64,000 bases of DNA. Origin: Pseudomonas alcaliphila JAB1 (GTDB lineage Bacteria > Pseudomonadota > Gammaproteobacteria > Pseudomonadales > Pseudomonadaceae). A model generated the notes under the pieces. That model made no database searches. It had not been told where the DNA came from and saw nothing but the letters and a program-made list of their open reading frames with translations. The position numbers were made by a program, and so were the translations under genes. This document shows, in pieces, positions 50,382-58,022 of the stretch (position 1 is its first letter; each line of letters opens with the position of its first letter). Where the stretch lies: the NCBI RefSeq assembly GCF_001941865.1, contig NZ_CP016162.1, forward strand, positions 5,142,501-5,206,500, written 5' to 3'.

Positions 50382-51647
50382 CTAGCTGGCGATCCGAAAG
50401 TCCGAATGCAACGCCCGCCAGTGCTCACGCAATGCGGCCTTGTGCGCCTCGTGCATGGGGCTGTCGCGCAGGGCTGCCGGCCATAGCGCGCGAGCCTTAT
50501 CGAGGGCGGCCTTGAGGTTGTAGAGAATCGGCGACTCCGGCAGATCCGCGCGCTTGGCCCAGCGCCGGAAGTGCTCGAGCGATACCTCATACCACTGCTT
50601 GGTCTGCGCCATGTTCAGCGCGTAGTGCTGCTCGGCAGGGATATAGGCCTTGGTGAAGAGGATGTCGTAGGCCGGCGACAGCACCGGGTTCACGCCATCG
50701 GGATAGAGAATGCTCCAGTTCTTCAGATGCGCATCGCCGTTGCCCAACAGGATGTTGACCAGCAAGCGCACAGCCATCTGCACCACGTCACGCTGGCCGC
50801 TGTAAGTGTTCTGATAGATCAGCCGGGCGATCTGTTCGTAACTGGCCCTCTGGTACTTGTCCGCCGCATAGGCGAACAGCACCTGGGCGAAGTCCTCGGC
50901 ATGCACGCGCTTGCCCTCGGCCCGATCAAAACGGCGGATGCCATAGGCATAGCCTTCATCCGGCAGCTTGATCTGCGGCAGACGCTCGAGCTTGTCGAGT
51001 TCTACCAGACGGATTTCCGGTATATCCACGCCGGCCAGCGCCGCAAGGTGCATGCAGGTGTATTCGTTGAGCGGTACATGATCATGCACCGTGGAGGGCG
51101 TCTTGATGATCCAGTCACCGGGCGCCGCCGTATCCCCCAATTGGTAACGGCCATCGCGCTGGTGCATGGAAAACTTCATCTGCACCCCCGCCAGGGAAAA
51201 ATGCGCCACCCGGTCCACGGTAGCCACCGCCACTCGGTCGAGCCGCCCACGGTCACCGAAGGCCGCATCCGGGATAGCCTCGGCAGCGACCGGCTCGGCG
51301 ATTAGCGCACCGGGCAGGTCGCCGCCCAGGTGTACCAACAGCGGGAACTCGTTGTGCTCATGGACCTTCAAGCGCTGGGCCAGCAGTTGGCGCAGCGCGC
51401 CTTCGGGCAGCAGGTTGCTCAGCAGCGGGTGCAACTGCATATTGGTCGCCACCGGGAAACTCTTGCCAGCACGGGCCGCGAAGGTGGCCGGGTTGGCCAG
51501 TGACAGGGTCAGCGCGGGGCGGTTGGCATCCTCAACAAACGACGGCGCCAGCGACAACACCGTGCGGTTATGTGCATAGCCGGCCACGTAACCCACCAAC
51601 TGCCCATGCAGCGTCAACCTGAGTGCCGAAACCTGCTCGCCGGCCAT
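50382..51647 (-). CDS. hipA: HipA-type serine/threonine kinase toxin
   Basis: A 421-residue HipA. The N-terminal subdomain LRLTLHGQLVGYVAGY, the P-loop region LAGVQMKFSM, the catalytic NGDAHLKNWS and metal-binding AYDILF are all present, so the kinase appears intact. Its ATG shares one base with the hipB stop (TGATG), giving coupled translation. HipA toxins phosphorylate targets such as glutamyl-tRNA synthetase and cause dormancy. It lies in reverse orientation inside the cas operon, which is unusual. Confidence 0.9.
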   Translation of the reverse strand: MAGEQVSALRLTLHGQLVGYVAGYAHNRTVLSLAPSFVEDANRPALTLSLANPATFAARAGKSFPVATNMQLHPLLSNLLPEGALRQLLAQRLKVHEHNEFPLLVHLGGDLPGALIAEPVAAEAIPDAAFGDRGRLDRVAVATVDRVAHFSLAGVQMKFSMHQRDGRYQLGDTAAPGDWIIKTPSTVHDHVPLNEYTCMHLAALAGVDIPEIRLVELDKLERLPQIKLPDEGYAYGIRRFDRAEGKRVHAEDFAQVLFAYAADKYQRASYEQIARLIYQNTYSGQRDVVQMAVRLLVNILLGNGDAHLKNWSILYPDGVNPVLSPAYDILFTKAYIPAEQHYALNMAQTKQWYEVSLEHFRRWAKRADLPESPILYNLKAALDKARALWPAALRDSPMHEAHKAALREHWRALHSDFRIAS

Positions 51648-51988
51648 CAGTCGTCACCCAGGTCTTGCCAGGGGTCTTCGATGGTTTCCTTGACACCCGC
51701 GCCAGGCGCAGACGATGGCGAGCGGTCCACGGCGTAGTTCTGTTGCGCCCTGGCGGGGCCGGCCTCCAGCAGTTGCTCGACCTGACGTGCCAGCTCCTTG
51801 GGGATCAGCATCAGAGTGGCGTCCAGGCCTTCGGCGATCTTGTCCAGGGTAGCCAGGCTGGGGTTACCGTCTTTCTCGATCTTGCCGTACTGCTGACGAT
51901 TCAACCCCACCCGCAACGGCATATCCGTACCTTTCAGGCCAAGCTGCAGGCGTCGACGTTTGATCTGGGTCAGCACTGTGCTGCGCAT
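51647..51988 (-). CDS. hipB: HipB-type antitoxin / XRE repressor
   Basis: A 113-residue protein with an XRE helix-turn-helix (RRRLQLGLKGTDMPLRVGLN, RQQYGKIEKDGNPSLATLDKIAEGL) and a disordered acidic C-terminus (KETIEDPWQDLGDD). HipB neutralises HipA and represses its own operon. Six palindromic boxes upstream (52018-52178) are the likely operators. Confidence 0.88.
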   Translation of the reverse strand: MRSTVLTQIKRRRLQLGLKGTDMPLRVGLNRQQYGKIEKDGNPSLATLDKIAEGLDATLMLIPKELARQVEQLLEAGPARAQQNYAVDRSPSSAPGAGVKETIEDPWQDLGDD

Positions 51989-52017
51989 GGGCTACCTCAC
52001 TCGCTCTATCCAGGCAT

Positions 52018-52178
52018 GCAGCATATAAGACTCTATTGGATATGAAGAGCCTTAAAAGCTTCAAAATCAACCAGAAGAATCTTATATGCTTCACTTAAAA
52101 ATGAAGCTTATAAGCCTCATAAAATTTAATTTGCAGCATTAATACTTCAGATGCGAACGATTGAAGCATAAAAGCTTC
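52018..52178. promoter_or_regulatory. Array of six 16-bp palindromic operator boxes upstream of hipB
   Basis: Boxes fit GAAGC-N6-GCTTC with AT-only N6 and start at 52018, 52047, 52077, 52103, 52133 and 52163, i.e. steps of 29, 30, 26, 30 and 30 bp. The last (GAAGCATAAAAGCTTC, 52163-52178) is a perfect match; 52103-52118 is GAAGCTTATAAGCCTC; 52047-52062 is GAGCCTTAAAAGCTTC; 52077-52092 is GAATCTTATATGCTTC; 52133-52148 is GCAGCATTAATACTTC; 52018-52033 is GCAGCATATAAGACTC. Three-turn spacing puts the boxes on one DNA face, as for cooperative HipB binding. Confidence 0.7.
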
Positions 52179-52220
52179 TTTGCGCAAATGGCTAGGCTTG
52201 AGCTGAGAGAAACGGGAGTG

Positions 52221-52250
52221 ATGGCAAAATAGTGATTTCCGTTTTGCCAT
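52221..52250. terminator. Hairpin between hipB operators and the mini-CRISPR
   Basis: ATGGCAAAA (52221-52229) and TTTTGCCAT (52242-52250) are perfect inverted copies with a 12-nt loop. It could insulate the minus-strand mini-CRISPR transcript from hipBA. Confidence 0.5.
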
Positions 52251-52305
52251 TCCAGCCTGCTGGCGAAGTAGAAAAGCAGGAAGGACAGTACTAACAGGAA
52301 AGGGA

Positions 52306-52410
52306 AGCCGGCCCGGAGGCCGGTGGATCTAAGCTGCCTATTCGGCAGTGAAGTTTCTAGGCCAAGGCCAATAGCTCATATTTCTAAGCTGCCTTTGCGG
52401 CAGAAGACTG
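52306..52410 (-). ncRNA. CreA/CreR-like crRNA-like regulator: two degenerate CRISPR repeats around a 27-nt guide
   Basis: On the minus strand a first degenerate repeat (52408-52381) has stem CTGCC/GGCAG, loop GCAAA and ends GCTTAGAAA, giving a near-normal 5' handle. The guide (52380-52354) starts TATGAGCT. A second degenerate repeat (52353-52326) starts CTTCACTGCC with an intact stem and matches array 1 repeats at 24 of 28 bases. A hairpin CCGGCC/GGCCGG (52308-52323) and pyrimidine-rich tail follow. Both stems should be cut by Csy4. There is one guide and no leader, so this is not an adapting array. Known analogues are CreA antitoxin RNAs and Cas-regulating RNAs of type I systems. Confidence 0.82.
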
Positions 52411-52515
52411 CACCTACTGTTCTCACAGCTAGTAGCTAGAGAAGGGTAAGTGATCCCCCAAGGAATTTGCCAGTTGCACCGTATCGATTCTCTGAGCTAG
52501 TCTAATCGAAAGACA

Positions 52516-52549
52516 CAAAAATCATAGACTAAGACTAAAAGTTCATAGG
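52516..52549 (-). promoter_or_regulatory. Predicted Cascade target of the crRNA-like regulator, with CC PAM
   Basis: On the minus strand CC (complement of 52548-52549) precedes TATGAACTTTTAG. Against the guide, positions 1-5, 7, 8, 10, 11, 13, 15-17, 19, 21-23 and 26 match (18 of 27). Mismatches at 6, 12, 18 and 24 are the bases that type I-F guides flip out, so they do not count against binding. Mismatches beyond the seed should allow binding without Cas2-3 cleavage. The site lies just upstream of the mini-ORF transcript and csy1. Confidence 0.78.
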
Positions 52550-52560
52550 TGTAAAAAATT

Positions 52561-52745
52561 CAGTAACCAGATCTCACCCTGGTTACTGATGAAGCAACGC
52601 TTGGTTGCGAGCCGAGCATCCATCTGCAGGAACGATGCAGAAAGGAGGGTACGAAGGTGATGGGCTGCCACTCTGTTAGGAGGGATAGCTGAGGGCACGA
52701 ATGCCCATTTACACCCCGAGGTAGCGATGCTTCGGGGTGCATCTT
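52561..52745 (+). ncRNA. Structured leader upstream of csy1, candidate CreT-like toxin RNA
   Basis: A perfect 10-bp hairpin CAGTAACCAG/CTGGTTACTG (52561-52588) is followed by an AGGAGGG Shine-Dalgarno, a mini-ORF, a GGGC/GCCC hairpin (52693-52706) and an 8-bp hairpin CACCCCGA/TCGGGGTG (52712-52739). This arrangement is that expected for a small stable RNA. It starts directly downstream of the predicted Cascade target. It may instead be the csy1 5' untranslated region. Confidence 0.6.
52657..52692 (+). CDS. 11-codon mini-ORF with tandem AGG codons (candidate CreT)
   Basis: GTG ATG GGC TGC CAC then TCT GTT AGG AGG GAT AGC TGA encodes MMGCHSVRRDS. AGGAGG lies 8 nt before the GTG, an ideal spacing. 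Codons 8 and 9 are AGG AGG, both rare in GC-rich Pseudomonas. Known CreT toxins are mini-ORFs with strong ribosome-binding sites that trap rare tRNAs, often arginine. The AGGAGG could instead be a second Shine-Dalgarno, though the next ATG is 17 nt away. Confidence 0.5.
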   Translation: MMGCHSVRRDS

Positions 52746-52783
52746 ACCTCTAGCTGTTTCTCTCAGCACAAGGATTTGTTGCT

Positions 52784-54145
52784 ATGAATGCCCCCTCCTC
52801 CAGCCGACAGCAGGCCATCCGCAGCCTGATCGAGCGCTTTATCGCCGAGCGTCTGGCCACCAAGCTCGAAGGCCTGGCCGATGATGACCCCAAGCGCGCC
52901 ACCCTGCTTGCCCAATACGCCCCGGACGTATGGCTGGAAGATGCCGCTCGCCGCGCCGGGCAGATCCAGGCGGTGACCCATACGCTCAAGGCGATTCACC
53001 CGGACGCCAAGGGCACCAACCTTTATTGTTTGCCGAACAGCTTGCCGCAACATGCGCTGGTCGGCAGCCATTGCCTGGGCGACGACTTTGCCGGCGATGT
53101 GGTGGGCAATGCCGCCGCGCTGGATGTCTACAAGCTGCTCAAGCTGGAGCACGACGGCCAGACACTGCTCGACCTGCTGCTGGCCGCAGATGCCGATGCC
53201 ATTGCCGCGCTGCATACAGATGACGAGCAGGCCCGGAGTCTGGCCCCAGCCTTTACCGGCATCACCCGTGCGCGCGACGGCCTGGCCTCCCACACCCACG
53301 GCAAGCAGCTGTACTGGCTGGTCGGTGATGATCCGCGCAACGATGAGCACTACCATCTGCTCGCCCCGCTGTATGCCAGCTCGCTGGCACATCGGGTGTA
53401 TCAGGCGATCCAGGCCGACCGCTTCGGCGAACCAGCCAAGGAAGCGCGTCAGGCGCGCCGCGACAAGCAGTTTCACCCTGGCGTGATTCACGAGTACCCC
53501 GACCTGGCGGTGCAGAAGCTCGGCGGCACCAAACCGCAGAATATCTCCCAGCTCAACAGCGAACGGCGTGGCAACAATTACCTGCTCGCCTCCCTGCCGC
53601 CAAGCTGGCAGCCGCGCGATGTACGCCTGCCGATCCGCACCCGTGACGGCTCGATCTTCCCGGCCTTCGGCAAGCGCCCGGCGGTGGCCGAGCTGGTGCG
53701 CAGCCTGCGCGACTTTCTGCTCAGCGGCCCACCAGCGAACGTGCACACCCGCAACAGCCGCGATGAACTGCTCACCGAGCTGATCGACGAATTGCTGTTG
53801 TACGCCGTCGAGCTTTGGGCCTTCGAGCCCGGCTGGTCGGCCAAGCCCGAGTGCAACCTCAACCGCGCCGAGCAGCTGTGGCTGGATTTCCGCCGCGCCG
53901 AGCACGACGCCATCTTCGCCAGCGAATGGCGACGCATGGAGTGGCTCACGGAAGTTCGCGAGCGCTTCGCCAACTGGCTCAATGCGCGGCTGGTCAGCAA
54001 GCTTTCGGTCGGCGATGTGGAGAACAGCTACTGGGTCAAAAAGGCCGGCGGCAATGCCCTGTGGCTCGACCTCGACTGGCTGAACCGGGCCTGGGTCGAA
54101 CAATTCGAGCGCGAGCAACGCGACCTGGAGGCCGAACATGAGTGA
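52784..54145 (+). CDS. csy1: Csy1 (Cas8f), large subunit of the type I-F Cascade
   Basis: A 453-residue Csy1 starting MNAPSSSRQQAIRSLIERFI, with AAGGA upstream. GTKPQNISQLNSERRGNNYLL is the diagnostic Csy1 segment near residue 250. With Csy2 it forms the tail that binds the crRNA handle and the PAM. Its end overlaps csy2 by 8 bp. Confidence 0.97.
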   Translation: MNAPSSSRQQAIRSLIERFIAERLATKLEGLADDDPKRATLLAQYAPDVWLEDAARRAGQIQAVTHTLKAIHPDAKGTNLYCLPNSLPQHALVGSHCLGDDFAGDVVGNAAALDVYKLLKLEHDGQTLLDLLLAADADAIAALHTDDEQARSLAPAFTGITRARDGLASHTHGKQLYWLVGDDPRNDEHYHLLAPLYASSLAHRVYQAIQADRFGEPAKEARQARRDKQFHPGVIHEYPDLAVQKLGGTKPQNISQLNSERRGNNYLLASLPPSWQPRDVRLPIRTRDGSIFPAFGKRPAVAELVRSLRDFLLSGPPANVHTRNSRDELLTELIDELLLYAVELWAFEPGWSAKPECNLNRAEQLWLDFRRAEHDAIFASEWRRMEWLTEVRERFANWLNARLVSKLSVGDVENSYWVKKAGGNALWLDLDWLNRAWVEQFEREQRDLEAEHE

Positions 54146-55139
54146 ACTTCCCTCCTCCAACGGCCTGCTGATCGTCCCCCACCTGCGGGTGCAGAACGCC
54201 AACGCCATTTCCAGCCCGCTGACCTGGGGCTTCCCCGCCATCAGCGCGTTCATCGGCCTGATGCAGGCCGTCGAACGCAGGCTCGAGGGTCGCTTCGCCC
54301 TGATGTTCGACAGCGTCGGGGTGGTCTGCCATAGCCATGACGCCCAGGTCACCGGGGGCTATCAACGCGCCTTGCGCCTGACCCGCAACCCGGTCAACGA
54401 GCGCGGTGAAACCGCCGCCATCGTCGAAGAGGGGCGCATCCACCTGGATATCACGCTGATCTTCGGCGTCAGCGGCTATAGCGAAGACGGCCAGCCAGAC
54501 CCGGTGCAGGGCGACTGGCAAAAGCGCCGCACGATCGCCGCTGAAATCGCAAATCTGCTGGGCAGCATGCGTATCGCCGGCGGTAGCGTGTTCCTCGATC
54601 CGCAGCACCAGCCGGTACTGGAGCCATTGGCACAAGGCGAGGAACGCAGCAAGCAGTTCCGCCGCCTGCGTCGCCGCTGGCTGCCGGGCTTCGCCCTGGT
54701 CAGTCGCGACGACCTGCTACAAAACCACCTGCAGCAACTGCGTGGCGAGAACGCCAGCGCCGATCTGCTCGATGCCTGGCTCGACCTTTCACGCCTGAAC
54801 CTGCGCGTCCAGGAAGCCCGCCCAGCCAGCGAAAGCCAGCCTGCCAAAGTCGAGTGGCGCGCCCAGCGCGTGGTGCCCAATGGCTGGCTGGTGCCGATCC
54901 CCGTCGGTTACGGCGCCCTCGGCCCGCTGCAGGCCGCCGGCTGCGTGGCCAACGCGCGGGACGGACAAACCCCGCTGCGTTTCGTCGAAAGCCTCTACTC
55001 CATCGGCCAATGGCTCAGCCCGCACCGGCTGCGCGATGTCGATGACCTGCTCTGGTATGCCAGCGCCGCCCCCGAGGCCGGCCTGTACCGCTGCCACAAC
55101 CTTTACAGCCAAACCCTCTGCACTGATGACATGGAGTGA
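54138..55139 (+). CDS. csy2: Csy2 (Cas5f)
   Basis: A 333-residue Cas5-family protein starting [41 protein letters not shown] and GYGALGPLQ are typical of Csy2. It binds the 5' handle of the crRNA with Csy1. Translationally coupled to csy1. Confidence 0.96.
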
Positions 55140-55144
55140 CCATC

Positions 55145-56164
55145 ATGACCACCGCCCCTCTGAAAACCGCTTCCGTCCTGGCCTTCGAGCGCAAGCTCGA
55201 CCCTTCCGATGCGCTGTTTCATGCCGGTGACTGGCAGACGCGCGACAACTGGCAGCCGCTCGCCGTGCGGGAAAAATCCGTGCGCGGCACCATCTCCAAT
55301 CGCCTCAAGGCCAAAGACCAAGACCCAGCCAAGCTCGACGCCGCCATCGAGAACCCCAACCTGCAGACCGTCGACGTCGCGGCCCTGCCGCATGACGCCG
55401 ATACCCTGCGTGCCAGCTTCACCCTGCGCGTACTCGGTGGCGCCGGCACACCCTCGGCCTGCAACGATGCCGATTACCGACAGAAGCTGCTGGACACCGT
55501 GCAAGGCTATGTCGCCAGCCACGGCTTCGCTGAACTGGCACGTCGCTACGCACACAACCTGGCCAATGGTCGCTTCCTGTGGCGCAACCGTATCGGTGCT
55601 GAACAGGTAGAGGTACAGATTGCCCACCTGGTCGATGGCAAGGCGGCCAAGCAGTGGAGCTTCGATGCGCTGAGCCTGTCCCTGCGCAACTTCGACGCCA
55701 GCGGCCCGGCGGCCACGGCGCTGGACGAACTGGCCAAGCTGATCGCTGCCGGCCTGAGCGGCGAGCGTCACCTGCTGCTGGGCATCACGGCTCATGTACG
55801 CATGGGTGCTGGCCAGGAGGTATTCCCCTCCCAGGAGCTGATCCTCGACCGGGGCAAGGGCGACAAAAGCAAGACCCTGTACAGCGTCGACGGCGTCGCC
55901 GGCATGCACTCGCAAAAGCTCGGCAATGCCCTGCGCACCATCGACACCTGGTATCCGGACGCCGGCGAACTCGGCCCCATCGCCGTCGAACCCTACGGTT
56001 CGGTCACCACCGAAGGCCGCGCCTATCGCCAACCCAAGGCCAAGGCGGACTTCTACAACCTGCTGGACAACTGGCTGCTCAAGGACAAAGTGCCCAGCAT
56101 CGGTGACCAGCACTTCGTCATGGCCACCCTGATTCGCGGTGGCGTGTTTGGCGAGGCGGGCTAG
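55145..56164 (+). CDS. csy3: Csy3 (Cas7f), backbone subunit
   Basis: A 339-residue protein starting [24 protein letters not shown] is 8 nt upstream of this ATG, preferred over an upstream GTG at 55136. [21 protein letters not shown] is the Csy3 N-terminal signature. Six copies coat the guide; Csy3 causes the every-sixth-base flip of type I-F guides. Confidence 0.97.
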
Positions 56165-56166
56165 CC

Positions 56167-56730
56167 ATGGACCACTACCTCGACCTAAAACTGCTGCCCG
56201 ACCCGGAATTCCCGGCCACGCAGTTGATGAGCGCACTGCTGGCCAAACTGCACCGCGGCCTGCATGACCTGCGCCGCACGGACGTGGGCATCAGCTTTCC
56301 GGATGTGGAAAGCGCCAGCCACGGCCTAGGCGCGCGCCTGCGCCTGCATGGCAGTGCCGAAGCGCTGGATAAGTTGCTGGCGCTGAACTGGCTCAGCGGC
56401 ATGCGCGACCACTTGAACCTGGGTGAACTGGCGCCTATCCCGGCGCAGGTGCGCTGGCGTTGCGTCAGCCGCGTGCAGGTGGACAGCAACCCGGAGCGCG
56501 CCCGCCGCCGCCTGATCAAACGCCACGGCATCAACGAGGCGGAGGCGCGCCAGCGCATCCCCGACAGCGCCGGCAAACGCTGCGACCTGCCTTATGCCAC
56601 CTTGCGCAGCAACGGCAGCGGTCACAGCTTCCGCCTGTTTATCCGCCACGGCCCGCTGCTCGACAAACCCACCCCCGGCACCTTCGGCGCCTACGGCCTT
56701 AGCGCCCAGGCCAGCGTGCCCTGGTTCTGA
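56167..56730 (+). CDS. csy4: Csy4 (Cas6f) crRNA endonuclease
   Basis: A 187-residue Csy4. The catalytic histidine is probably that of LAKLHRGLHDLR near residue 29, and the C-terminal GTFGAYGLS is the family signature. It cuts each repeat 3' of the hairpin and stays bound to it. The leader of array 2 begins at its stop codon. Confidence 0.97.
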   Translation: MDHYLDLKLLPDPEFPATQLMSALLAKLHRGLHDLRRTDVGISFPDVESASHGLGARLRLHGSAEALDKLLALNWLSGMRDHLNLGELAPIPAQVRWRCVSRVQVDSNPERARRRLIKRHGINEAEARQRIPDSAGKRCDLPYATLRSNGSGHSFRLFIRHGPLLDKPTPGTFGAYGLSAQASVPWF

Positions 56731-56860: not shown

Positions 56861-58022
56861 GTTCACTGCCGTGTAGGCAGCTCAGAAAATACCGCGGCCC
56901 GCGTGAAGCCGCCGAAAAGCGTTCACTGCCGTGTAGGCAGCTCAGAAAAGATCAGGCGGGAATCGACCGCATCATGGTTAGTTCACTGCCGTGTAGGCAG
57001 CTCAGAAAGTCGACGTGTGCCCCATCTGGTCTGCAATCCAGTTCACTGCCGTGTAGGCAGCTCAGAAATCGATACAGTTGCCGCCCGGCATGTAGTGGCC
57101 GTTCACTGCCGTGTAGGCAGCTCAGAAAATCGCCAACCTCATCGACCCCTGGCACCGCAAGTTCACTGCCGTGTAGGCAGCTCAGAAACGACGATGAGCC
57201 ATGACCCCGAGGTGTATATCGTTCACTGCCGTGTAGGCAGCTCAGAAAAAGCGCAAAACCCAATTTTCCCCCGTCAACTTAGTTCACTGCCGTGTAGGCA
57301 GCTCAGAAAACCATGTCGGGCAGCGAGGCCGCGACGAAGTAGTTCACTGCCGTGTAGGCAGCTCAGAAAGCGTCCATGGTCTTGACCACGACTTTCGGCA
57401 GGTTCACTGCCGTGTAGGCAGCTCAGAAAATTTCCGACTACCCGGAGAAGGTGACCGACTTGTTCACTGCCGTGTAGGCAGCTCAGAAAACGCTGCCGCC
57501 ATACAGCAACTCAAACTCAGTGTTCACTGCCGTGTAGGCAGCTCAGAAAATGGCATGCAGCGCCTGCAGCGCCGGCTTGAGGTTCACTGCCGTGTAGGCA
57601 GCTCAGAAAAGGTTTCCCGCACAGCATTCAGTGGCCAGTGCGTTCACTGCCGTGTAGGCAGCTCAGAAAGGTGTGCCGCAGCAAACCTACACCCCGCTTG
57701 GGTTCACTGCCGTGTAGGCAGCTCAGAAATCGACGAACGGGTGAACGTGGTGGAGGTAGACGTTCACTGCCGTGTAGGCAGCTCAGAAAAAGCGGGGTAA
57801 TGCTCACACCGGCCGCGTTCGGTTCACTGCCGTGTAGGCAGCTCAGAAAGCGCGATTTCCGCGTCGAGGCGCCGGAGATCGGTTCACTGCCGTGTAGGCA
57901 GCTCAGAAATGCCAGCGATCCTGCTCGCGCAGGTTCACCACGTTCACTGCCGTGTAGGCAGCTCAGAAATGATAACGGCGCCCGTTCCATTCCATCACGT
58001 CGTTCACTGCCGTGTAGGCAGC
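56861..58022 (+). CRISPR. Type I-F CRISPR array 2: 20 repeats, 19 spacers
   Basis: Repeats start GTTCACTGCC, have stem CTGCC/GGCAG with loop GTGTA and end GCTCAGAAA. Spacing is 60 bp except between the repeats at 57221 and 57282, where the spacer is 33 nt. The last repeat (58002) is cut after 21 bases. Compared with array 1 the repeat differs at positions 1, 12 and 27. The leader is on the left. Confidence 0.98.

Follow-up and report, generated by a model that had tools for sequence, protein, structure and literature searches.

The gap upstream of csy1 in the window, the whole 64-kb stretch of DNA analyzed here, holds an inserted block that very probably constitutes a CreTA module of some kind, as judged from its sequence. 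Granted such a module, capture of a rare tRNA is the likely action of its toxin gene, creT. The best explanation of the block as a whole, which we hold with somewhat better than even confidence, is that a Csy complex guided by CreA represses a creT that ties up a rare Arg-tRNA.

An inserted block upstream of csy1

The block and its cas neighborhood contain the following features.

52257..52763: inserted block of 507 bp (creA, target and creT), flanked by the older csy leader and the csy1 ribosome-binding region, from alignment to relatives
52308..52323, minus strand: terminator-like hairpin past psiR2, predicted creA terminator (terminator scan)
52326..52353, minus strand: psiR2, degenerate repeat, 22/28 identical to the array repeat (Rfam CRISPR-DR4, 35.4 bits)
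52354..52380, minus strand (read 52380-52354): psiS guide, predicted CreA spacer, 27 nt, TATGAGCTATTGGCCTTGGCCTAGAAA (direct reading)
52381..52408, minus strand: psiR1, degenerate repeat, 21/28 identical to the array repeat, with 5' handle CTTAGAAA (repeat comparison)
52521..52547, minus strand (read 52547-52521): target (protospacer) of the psiS guide, TATGAACTTTTAGTCTTAGTCTATGAT, 18/27 matches
52548..52549, minus strand: CC PAM of the target (direct reading)
52784..54145, plus strand: csy1 (TIGR02564)
54138..55139, plus strand: csy2 (TIGR02565)
55136..56164, plus strand: csy3 (TIGR02566)
56167..56730, plus strand: csy4 (cas6f) (TIGR02563)
56861..57969, plus strand: type I-F CRISPR array, source of the reference repeat (repeat comparison)

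Alignment to P. composti L004 follows the window up to 52256 (L004 2984) and restarts at 52764 (L004 2981), with a four-base overlap in L004; 52257-52763 is therefore an inserted block, and the insertion point lies about 20 bp ahead of the csy1 start. The block is missing from five Pseudomonas relatives (P. composti L004, P. guguanensis L009 and, among L002, L003 and L005, P. oleovorans, P. indoloxydans and P. alcaliphila), so that the two degenerate repeats, guide, target, Shine-Dalgarno (SD) sequence and mini-ORF that can be read in it are absent together from these strains. When 398 genomes of the genus were searched at the DNA level, the block turned up solely in the window's own genome, and 11 others answered with repeat-like or other short stretches. 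The cas1, cas3 and csy1-4 genes gave type I-F family matches across almost their full lengths.

Both psiR1 and psiR2 retain the CTGCC/GGCAG stem, and together they form a degenerate mini-CRISPR with Cas6-type hairpins, located outside the arrays. We rejected an ordinary CRISPR array, since psiR1 and psiR2 are only 20/28 identical to each other and enclose one 27-nt spacer, whereas ordinary arrays have near-identical repeats and 32-nt spacers.

Other elements share this neighborhood. The minus strand at 50382-51988, between cas3 and csy1, carries a HipA-like gene and a small putative HTH gene, followed by the leader. The putative HTH gene has a weak, sub-cut-off match to mobile mystery protein A, and its DNA is retained in the five relatives without the insert. 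The leader (52020-52170), upstream of the insert, is AT-rich and contains repeated, partly palindromic GCTTATAAGC-like pieces that are possible operator sites. Plasmid matches of the leader were set aside as ordinary arrays, with repeat-spacer units repeated many times in Acinetobacter lwoffii and Photobacterium plasmids. In P. guguanensis L009 and L056, which are without the module, the csy1 match covers residues 1-180 of 453 and a frame check found stops, so that csy1 looks truncated or broken there.

The guide-target match

The original prediction held that the guide matches the minus strand from 52547 down, with 7/8 seed positions and 18/27 overall, beside a canonical CC PAM; direct reading bore this out, with the PAM at 52549-52548, and also the tandem TTGGCC of the guide facing tandem TTAGTC in the target. 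Seed matches fall at positions 1-5, 7 and 8, and the nine mismatches at 6, 9, 12, 14, 18, 20, 24, 25 and 27. The claim of mismatches at every sixth base thus stands for all of positions 6, 12, 18 and 24, while five other positions mismatch too. The target was also described as lying directly upstream of csy1, which does not hold, as 234 bp including the mini-ORF separate its PAM from the gene.

That the match is hard to explain by chance was upheld by several counts. The window has 10,345 CC-flanked sites, and the target ranks first among them at 18/27 (runner-up 16), and at 17/20 (runner-up 13) when the first 24 positions minus every sixth are counted. Dinucleotide shuffles of 52411-52783, the 373 bp from the mini-CRISPR to csy1, reached 17/20 in 0 of 20,000 rounds and 18/27 in 7 of 20,000. 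A whole-genome search for the PAM plus the bases common to guide and target, allowing at most three mismatches, matched the target (none, by construction), the guide itself (two, with AA where the CC PAM would stand) and one further place (three); the same pattern reversed matched once. One could still suppose a stray ordinary repeat-spacer unit with a spacer of phage origin and a chance match, and the CRISPR-like repeats on both sides of the spacer would suit such a unit. However, the window statistics and the whole-genome pattern search speak against this reading and the recurrence at 55 loci described below contradicts it; we regard its probability as negligible. A phage-derived guide was dropped as a candidate, the viral contigs holding no exact match to 21 guide bases, which is weak evidence by itself.

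Recurrence of guide and target upstream of csy1

To survey csy1-upstream regions, csy1 was sought via Pfam PF09611 in 398 genomes of the genus, 390 of the order, 369 of the class, and 161, 17 and 100 of the families of three hits, and eight further loci were added. Most of the listed places were taken in, leaving out three rows of the order draw (one a locus already included), four of the class draw and eleven of the draw from the family of G629. Before counting we removed L057, which fell short of the family cut-off, L119, which had 272 bases, and six near-identical duplicates. This left 155 distinct regions, among them L111 despite its interrupted csy1. A hit comprised an I-F-like hairpin and handle, then a guide, and a CC site no more than 520 bp away that matched at 13 or more of 17 counted positions, a cut-off chosen after the first results were seen.

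A mini-CRISPR with a CC-PAM target occurs in 55/155 regions at this threshold and in 53 when at least 14 of the 17 positions must match; these counts are not independent, because each family contributes related loci. With each of the other 15 dinucleotides in place of CC, 0 to 5 regions were found at 13 (17 summed), and one summed at 14. The own-locus target beats all 54 others for 49 of the 55 guides, and for the other six guides a locus carrying a similar guide scores as high or higher. Positions 1-5 match in all 55 pairs, and positions 6, 12, 18 and 24 match in 12, 13, 18 and 14 of them, about chance level. The scan ignored positions 6, 12 and 18 and all positions past 20, and the match counts there are therefore unbiased. 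Published work reports CC as the type I-F PAM (PMC7305327, in the text available) and, in the available parts of PMC7305327 and PMC6868142, that every sixth base does not count in guide pairing. The 55 pairings suggest that every sixth Csy guide base is free of selection in nature, agreeing with the reported structure.

Some loci depart from the common arrangement or resemble one another. L118 and L127 are distinct loci with the same 20 guide bases and slightly different targets, L061 and L081 have the target on the strand opposite to the usual one, and L116 and L117 have a mini-CRISPR oriented like csy1.

This recurrence supports the part of the original prediction that proposed RNA-guided repression; the main gene repressed, however, is probably not csy1, since an SD-led mini-ORF with tandem rare codons, a candidate toxin gene, intervenes between target and csy1.

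The creT mini-ORF and its surroundings

The plus strand between the target and csy1 contains the following features.

52531..52559, plus strand: weak promoter-like pair AAGACT-17-AAAAAT over target and PAM, uncertain candidate creT promoter, score 7
52560..52589, plus strand: strong hairpin, possibly close to the 5' end of the creT RNA (terminator scan, folding)
52641..52648, plus strand: SD sequence of creT, AAAGGAGG, strong (direct reading)
52657..52692, plus strand: creT mini-ORF, GTG ATG GGC TGC CAC TCT GTT AGG AGG GAT AGC TGA (direct reading, survey scan)
52657..52671, plus strand: predicted start-codon hairpin, with the start codon GUG (1-3) opposite its complement CAC (13-15) and 4-12 mismatched (survey scan)
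52678..52683, plus strand: tandem rare AGG codons, creT codons 8-9 from GTG (survey scan)
52712..52739, plus strand: GC-rich inverted repeat in the creT to csy1 gap, no T run, possible terminator or attenuator (direct reading)

The mini-ORF, divergent from creA and downstream of the PAM-flanked, partially complementary target, has 11 codons from GTG; starting from the ATG at 52660 gives a 33-bp form of 10 codons. Of the start-codon hairpin known from Acinetobacter sp. WCHA45, pairs 1-15, 2-14 and 3-13 form in the window and 4-12 does not. A 145-nt piece (52556-52700) folds with a z of -3.1, and for a 52-nt creT piece (z -1.1) the minimum-energy fold differs from the start-codon hairpin. The hairpin at 52560-52589 is terminator-like on the minus strand too, where it is directed at the target.

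The AGG AGG pair consists of two consecutive host-rare codons. In 23 long window ORFs, AGG makes up 2.25 of every 1000 codons, compared with 0.78 for AGA and 0.54 for TTA, and is thus uncommon, yet not the rarest codon; the long window ORFs retained by our script contain one further tandem AGR-AGR. ARAGORN, run on stretches over the 65 tRNA hits of the genome, gave Arg tRNAs ACG (3), CCG (1), CCT (1) and TCT (1), and tRNA-Arg(TCT) may be an additional reader of AGG.

The window's poor promoter candidate is the weak point of the CreTA reading. A strict scan of both strands of 52000-52800 passed no sigma-70 promoter. Elsewhere, 29 of the 51 loci in the usual orientation have a promoter-like pair (score at least 8) starting at most 7, mostly 2-4, bases from the protospacer end (14 of 24 loci with CreT, 15 of 27 without); the window is without such a PAM-abutting pair, its promoter score being 5 at that position, and its best pair (7) lies within the target, starting 17 bases ahead of the PAM. 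This, together with the nine guide-target mismatches, could indicate a decayed relic, an old creTA or mini-array whose toxin or promoter has been lost. Yet the seed, PAM, SD, ORF and codon pair are intact and the CTGCC/GGCAG stem is kept in both repeats, and we judge a relic very improbable.

Another reading takes the guide as a CreR-type autoregulator that brings Csy to the csy1 promoter, lowers csy1-4 and senses free crRNA and anti-CRISPR proteins, with the mini-ORF incidental or a leader peptide. The target does lie upstream of csy1, and its end is 236 bp from the gene, like most of the 18 listed CreT-bearing loci (mostly about 235-290 bp, 675 in L230, with some csy1 starts ambiguous); five other loci (L006, L118, L127, L243 and L245) have it 59-72 bp from csy1. 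The insertion parts csy1 from its older leader and the terminator scan called no plus-strand terminator between creT and csy1; therefore a promoter at the target may also feed csy1, in which case repression of csy1 would hold in addition. Guide and target occur with no tandem-codon mini-ORF in the scanned 440 bp at 31/55 loci (L230 has one farther upstream), and direct cas repression may fit some of these. For the window, however, the distance of the target, the SD and tandem rare codons in a fixed register and the conserved hairpin speak against this reading, which we consider unlikely.

L006 (Malikia spinosa), L118, L127, L243 and L245 are CreR-like type I-F units, and in L006, L243 and L245 the target abuts a -35/-10-like pair (in L006, 72 bp from csy1).

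Tandem rare codons in a fixed register

The tandem-codon mini-ORFs were first spotted by eye and then counted, the four codons being picked after they were seen. We scanned the 440 bp before csy1 for SD-led ORFs, 5-16 codons long, in which AGA, AGG, ATA or TTA stands twice in tandem. Of the 55 target-bearing regions, 24 contain such an ORF (the window and 23 others), as do 3 of the 100 without a target; the reverse strand gave 0/155, and 100 shuffling rounds gave a mean of 0.08 (maximum 1) of 55. Among these 27 mini-ORFs the pair starts at codon 8 in 23 and at codon 6 in four, and is AGA in 14, ATA in nine, AGG in three and TTA in one. Three SD-led mini-ORFs had another identical pair (GAT at codon 2, AAA at codon 9, CAC at codon 14). 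For the 19 of 27 hosts readable by script, the chosen codon is rare in csy1, with AGG at 0 (3 hosts), AGA at 0.8 (11), ATA at 0 (4) and TTA at 0 (1) per 1000 csy1 codons. A role of the pair as a decoy SD was rejected, being possible for AGGAGG alone and not for AGAAGA, ATAATA or TTATTA at the same place.

The start-codon hairpin is conserved along with the register. In the 22 distinct ORFs with the pair at codon 8, pairs 1-15, 2-14, 3-13 and 4-12 form in 21, 22, 22 and 21 cases, the window being the sole case with a mispaired 4-12, and A/G exchange at position 1 is accompanied by a change at position 15, with A-U and G-C pairs replacing each other. If the partner is shifted by one or two bases, 22 to 43 pairs remain, against 97/110 in register, and the pairing total was reached by 0 of 5,000 shuffles.

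These data bear on the possibility of a CreTA module whose toxin is the hairpin only, the start-codon hairpin and initiating ribosome acting as in Acinetobacter WCHA45 and the tandem AGG not being the toxic principle. The same spacing of start codon, nine bases and complement and the same 33-bp ORF length speak for it. Against it, the pair can be AGA, AGG, ATA or TTA while its place is fixed and it stays host-rare, which a codon-blind toxin does not predict, and the window is without the 4-12 pair. We treat a hairpin-only toxin as possible though rather unlikely.

We return to tRNA capture as the favored reading of creT. We predict that Csy4 processes the CreA RNA and that this RNA is loaded in the manner of a crRNA; the Csy complex carrying it would sit on the CC-flanked target and block creT transcription. 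Loss or inhibition of Csy1-4 would let creT be expressed. Less certainly, efficient initiation on the mini-ORF may then bring ribosomes to stall at AGG AGG and tie up the single-copy tRNA-Arg(CCT), and the start-codon hairpin known from Acinetobacter CreT may help this capture. The cell would be addicted to its own type I-F system, and one that loses the CRISPR system would probably poison itself. Slightly above even, in our estimate, is the wider proposal that a type I-F addiction-RNA family in Gammaproteobacteria joins the Acinetobacter start-codon hairpin to the haloarchaeal tandem rare codons, with the pair swapped among Arg, Ile and Leu at a fixed register to fit a scarce host tRNA; each lineage's tRNA would be hostage to Csy, and the window guide may check both toxin and csy1.

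Comparison with known systems

CreTA and CreR are already known; the comparisons that follow draw on the available portions of the cited papers. The closest system is the type I-F CreTA of Acinetobacter sp. WCHA45, a CRISPR-repressed RNA toxin-antitoxin (Nat Commun 2023, PMC10097628). Like the window, it has a gap before csy1 with a divergent creA whose two repeats are degenerate, a target that has a CC PAM and mismatches the guide at position 6, and an SD-led 33-bp mini-ORF whose start codon pairs with a complement nine bases on. The window differs in its guide of 27 nt (20 in WCHA45), in the HipA-like and putative HTH genes also present between cas3 and csy1, and in its target, which possibly overlaps the promoter, whereas that of WCHA45 lies downstream of it. 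The tandem AGG at codons 8-9 also sets the window apart, with codons 8-9 of WCHA45 not stated in the available text of PMC10097628. In WCHA45, CreT toxicity was mapped to the hairpin and loop bases, and pairs 1-15 and 4-12 of the Acinetobacter CreT are supported by compensatory mutations (PMC10097628). Among synonymous changes, only those to codons 2, 3 and 5 did away with toxicity in the part of that study available, and rare codons are therefore not the toxic principle there. A search of our loci for the few published Acinetobacter CreT codons, which scanned minus-strand loci on the opposite side of csy1, found none.

The tRNA-sequestering CreTs of the haloarchaea H. hispanica and H. hubeiense (type I-B; NAR 2021, PMC8501985) share with the window translation-start signals, a short ORF, two consecutive minor codons (theirs AGA or AUA), a stem-loop and Cascade-guided repression. 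One homologue has AGA replacing AUA (PMC8501985), resembling the codon switching seen here. They differ as archaeal type I-B systems with the codons at or near the start and the stem-loop downstream, compared with codons 8-9 and a start-codon hairpin in the window. In Citrobacter rodentium, a type I-E CreTA (Nat Microbiol 2025, PMC12055562) likewise places a toxin and a crRNA-like antitoxin in the gap from cas3 to the first Cascade gene; unlike creT, its toxin is a 96-bp ORF that must be translated and, in the text available, has no rare codons. The WCHA45 and C. rodentium CreTs, both bacterial, act by means other than tRNA capture as their accessible descriptions have it.

CreR RNAs, which regulate cas genes, are reviewed in PMC12737573 and PMC13131331. 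They resemble the window in being crRNA-like with partial complementarity to their own cas operon promoter, and differ in having no toxin gene in the available accounts. The types given in the available text of PMC13131331 are I-B, I-E and V-A, with I-F absent.

New in the literature searched are a bacterial type I-F CreT family that combines a start-codon hairpin with a rare-codon pair that can be switched, and type I-F units resembling CreR, of which the list in the accessible part of PMC13131331 has none. Some of our loci may be among the modules of the Science 2021 CreTA paper, which predicted several bacterial ones (as cited in the available text of PMC8501985), or of the PMC10097628 supplement. 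CreT toxins are described as hard to find, being tiny and poorly conserved (PMC10097628, available text). A fixed rule of SD, start codon-complement pairing, identical rare codons 8-9 and a CC-PAM guide beside csy1 makes them searchable. If it exists, a type I-F family that captures tRNAs through a switchable codon pair would bring the archaeal mechanism into bacteria. It would also help to account for the retention of csy genes and predict the outcome when an anti-CRISPR protein disables them.

Three loci have small proteins with one hydrophobic stretch between the CC-PAM target and csy1: L075 (1097-1300, 67 aa), L081 (1156-1299, 47 aa) and L218 (about 1134-1313, turned round, 59 aa). These resemble protein toxins controlled by a crRNA-like guide, and are CrePA-like in the sense of the available review text.
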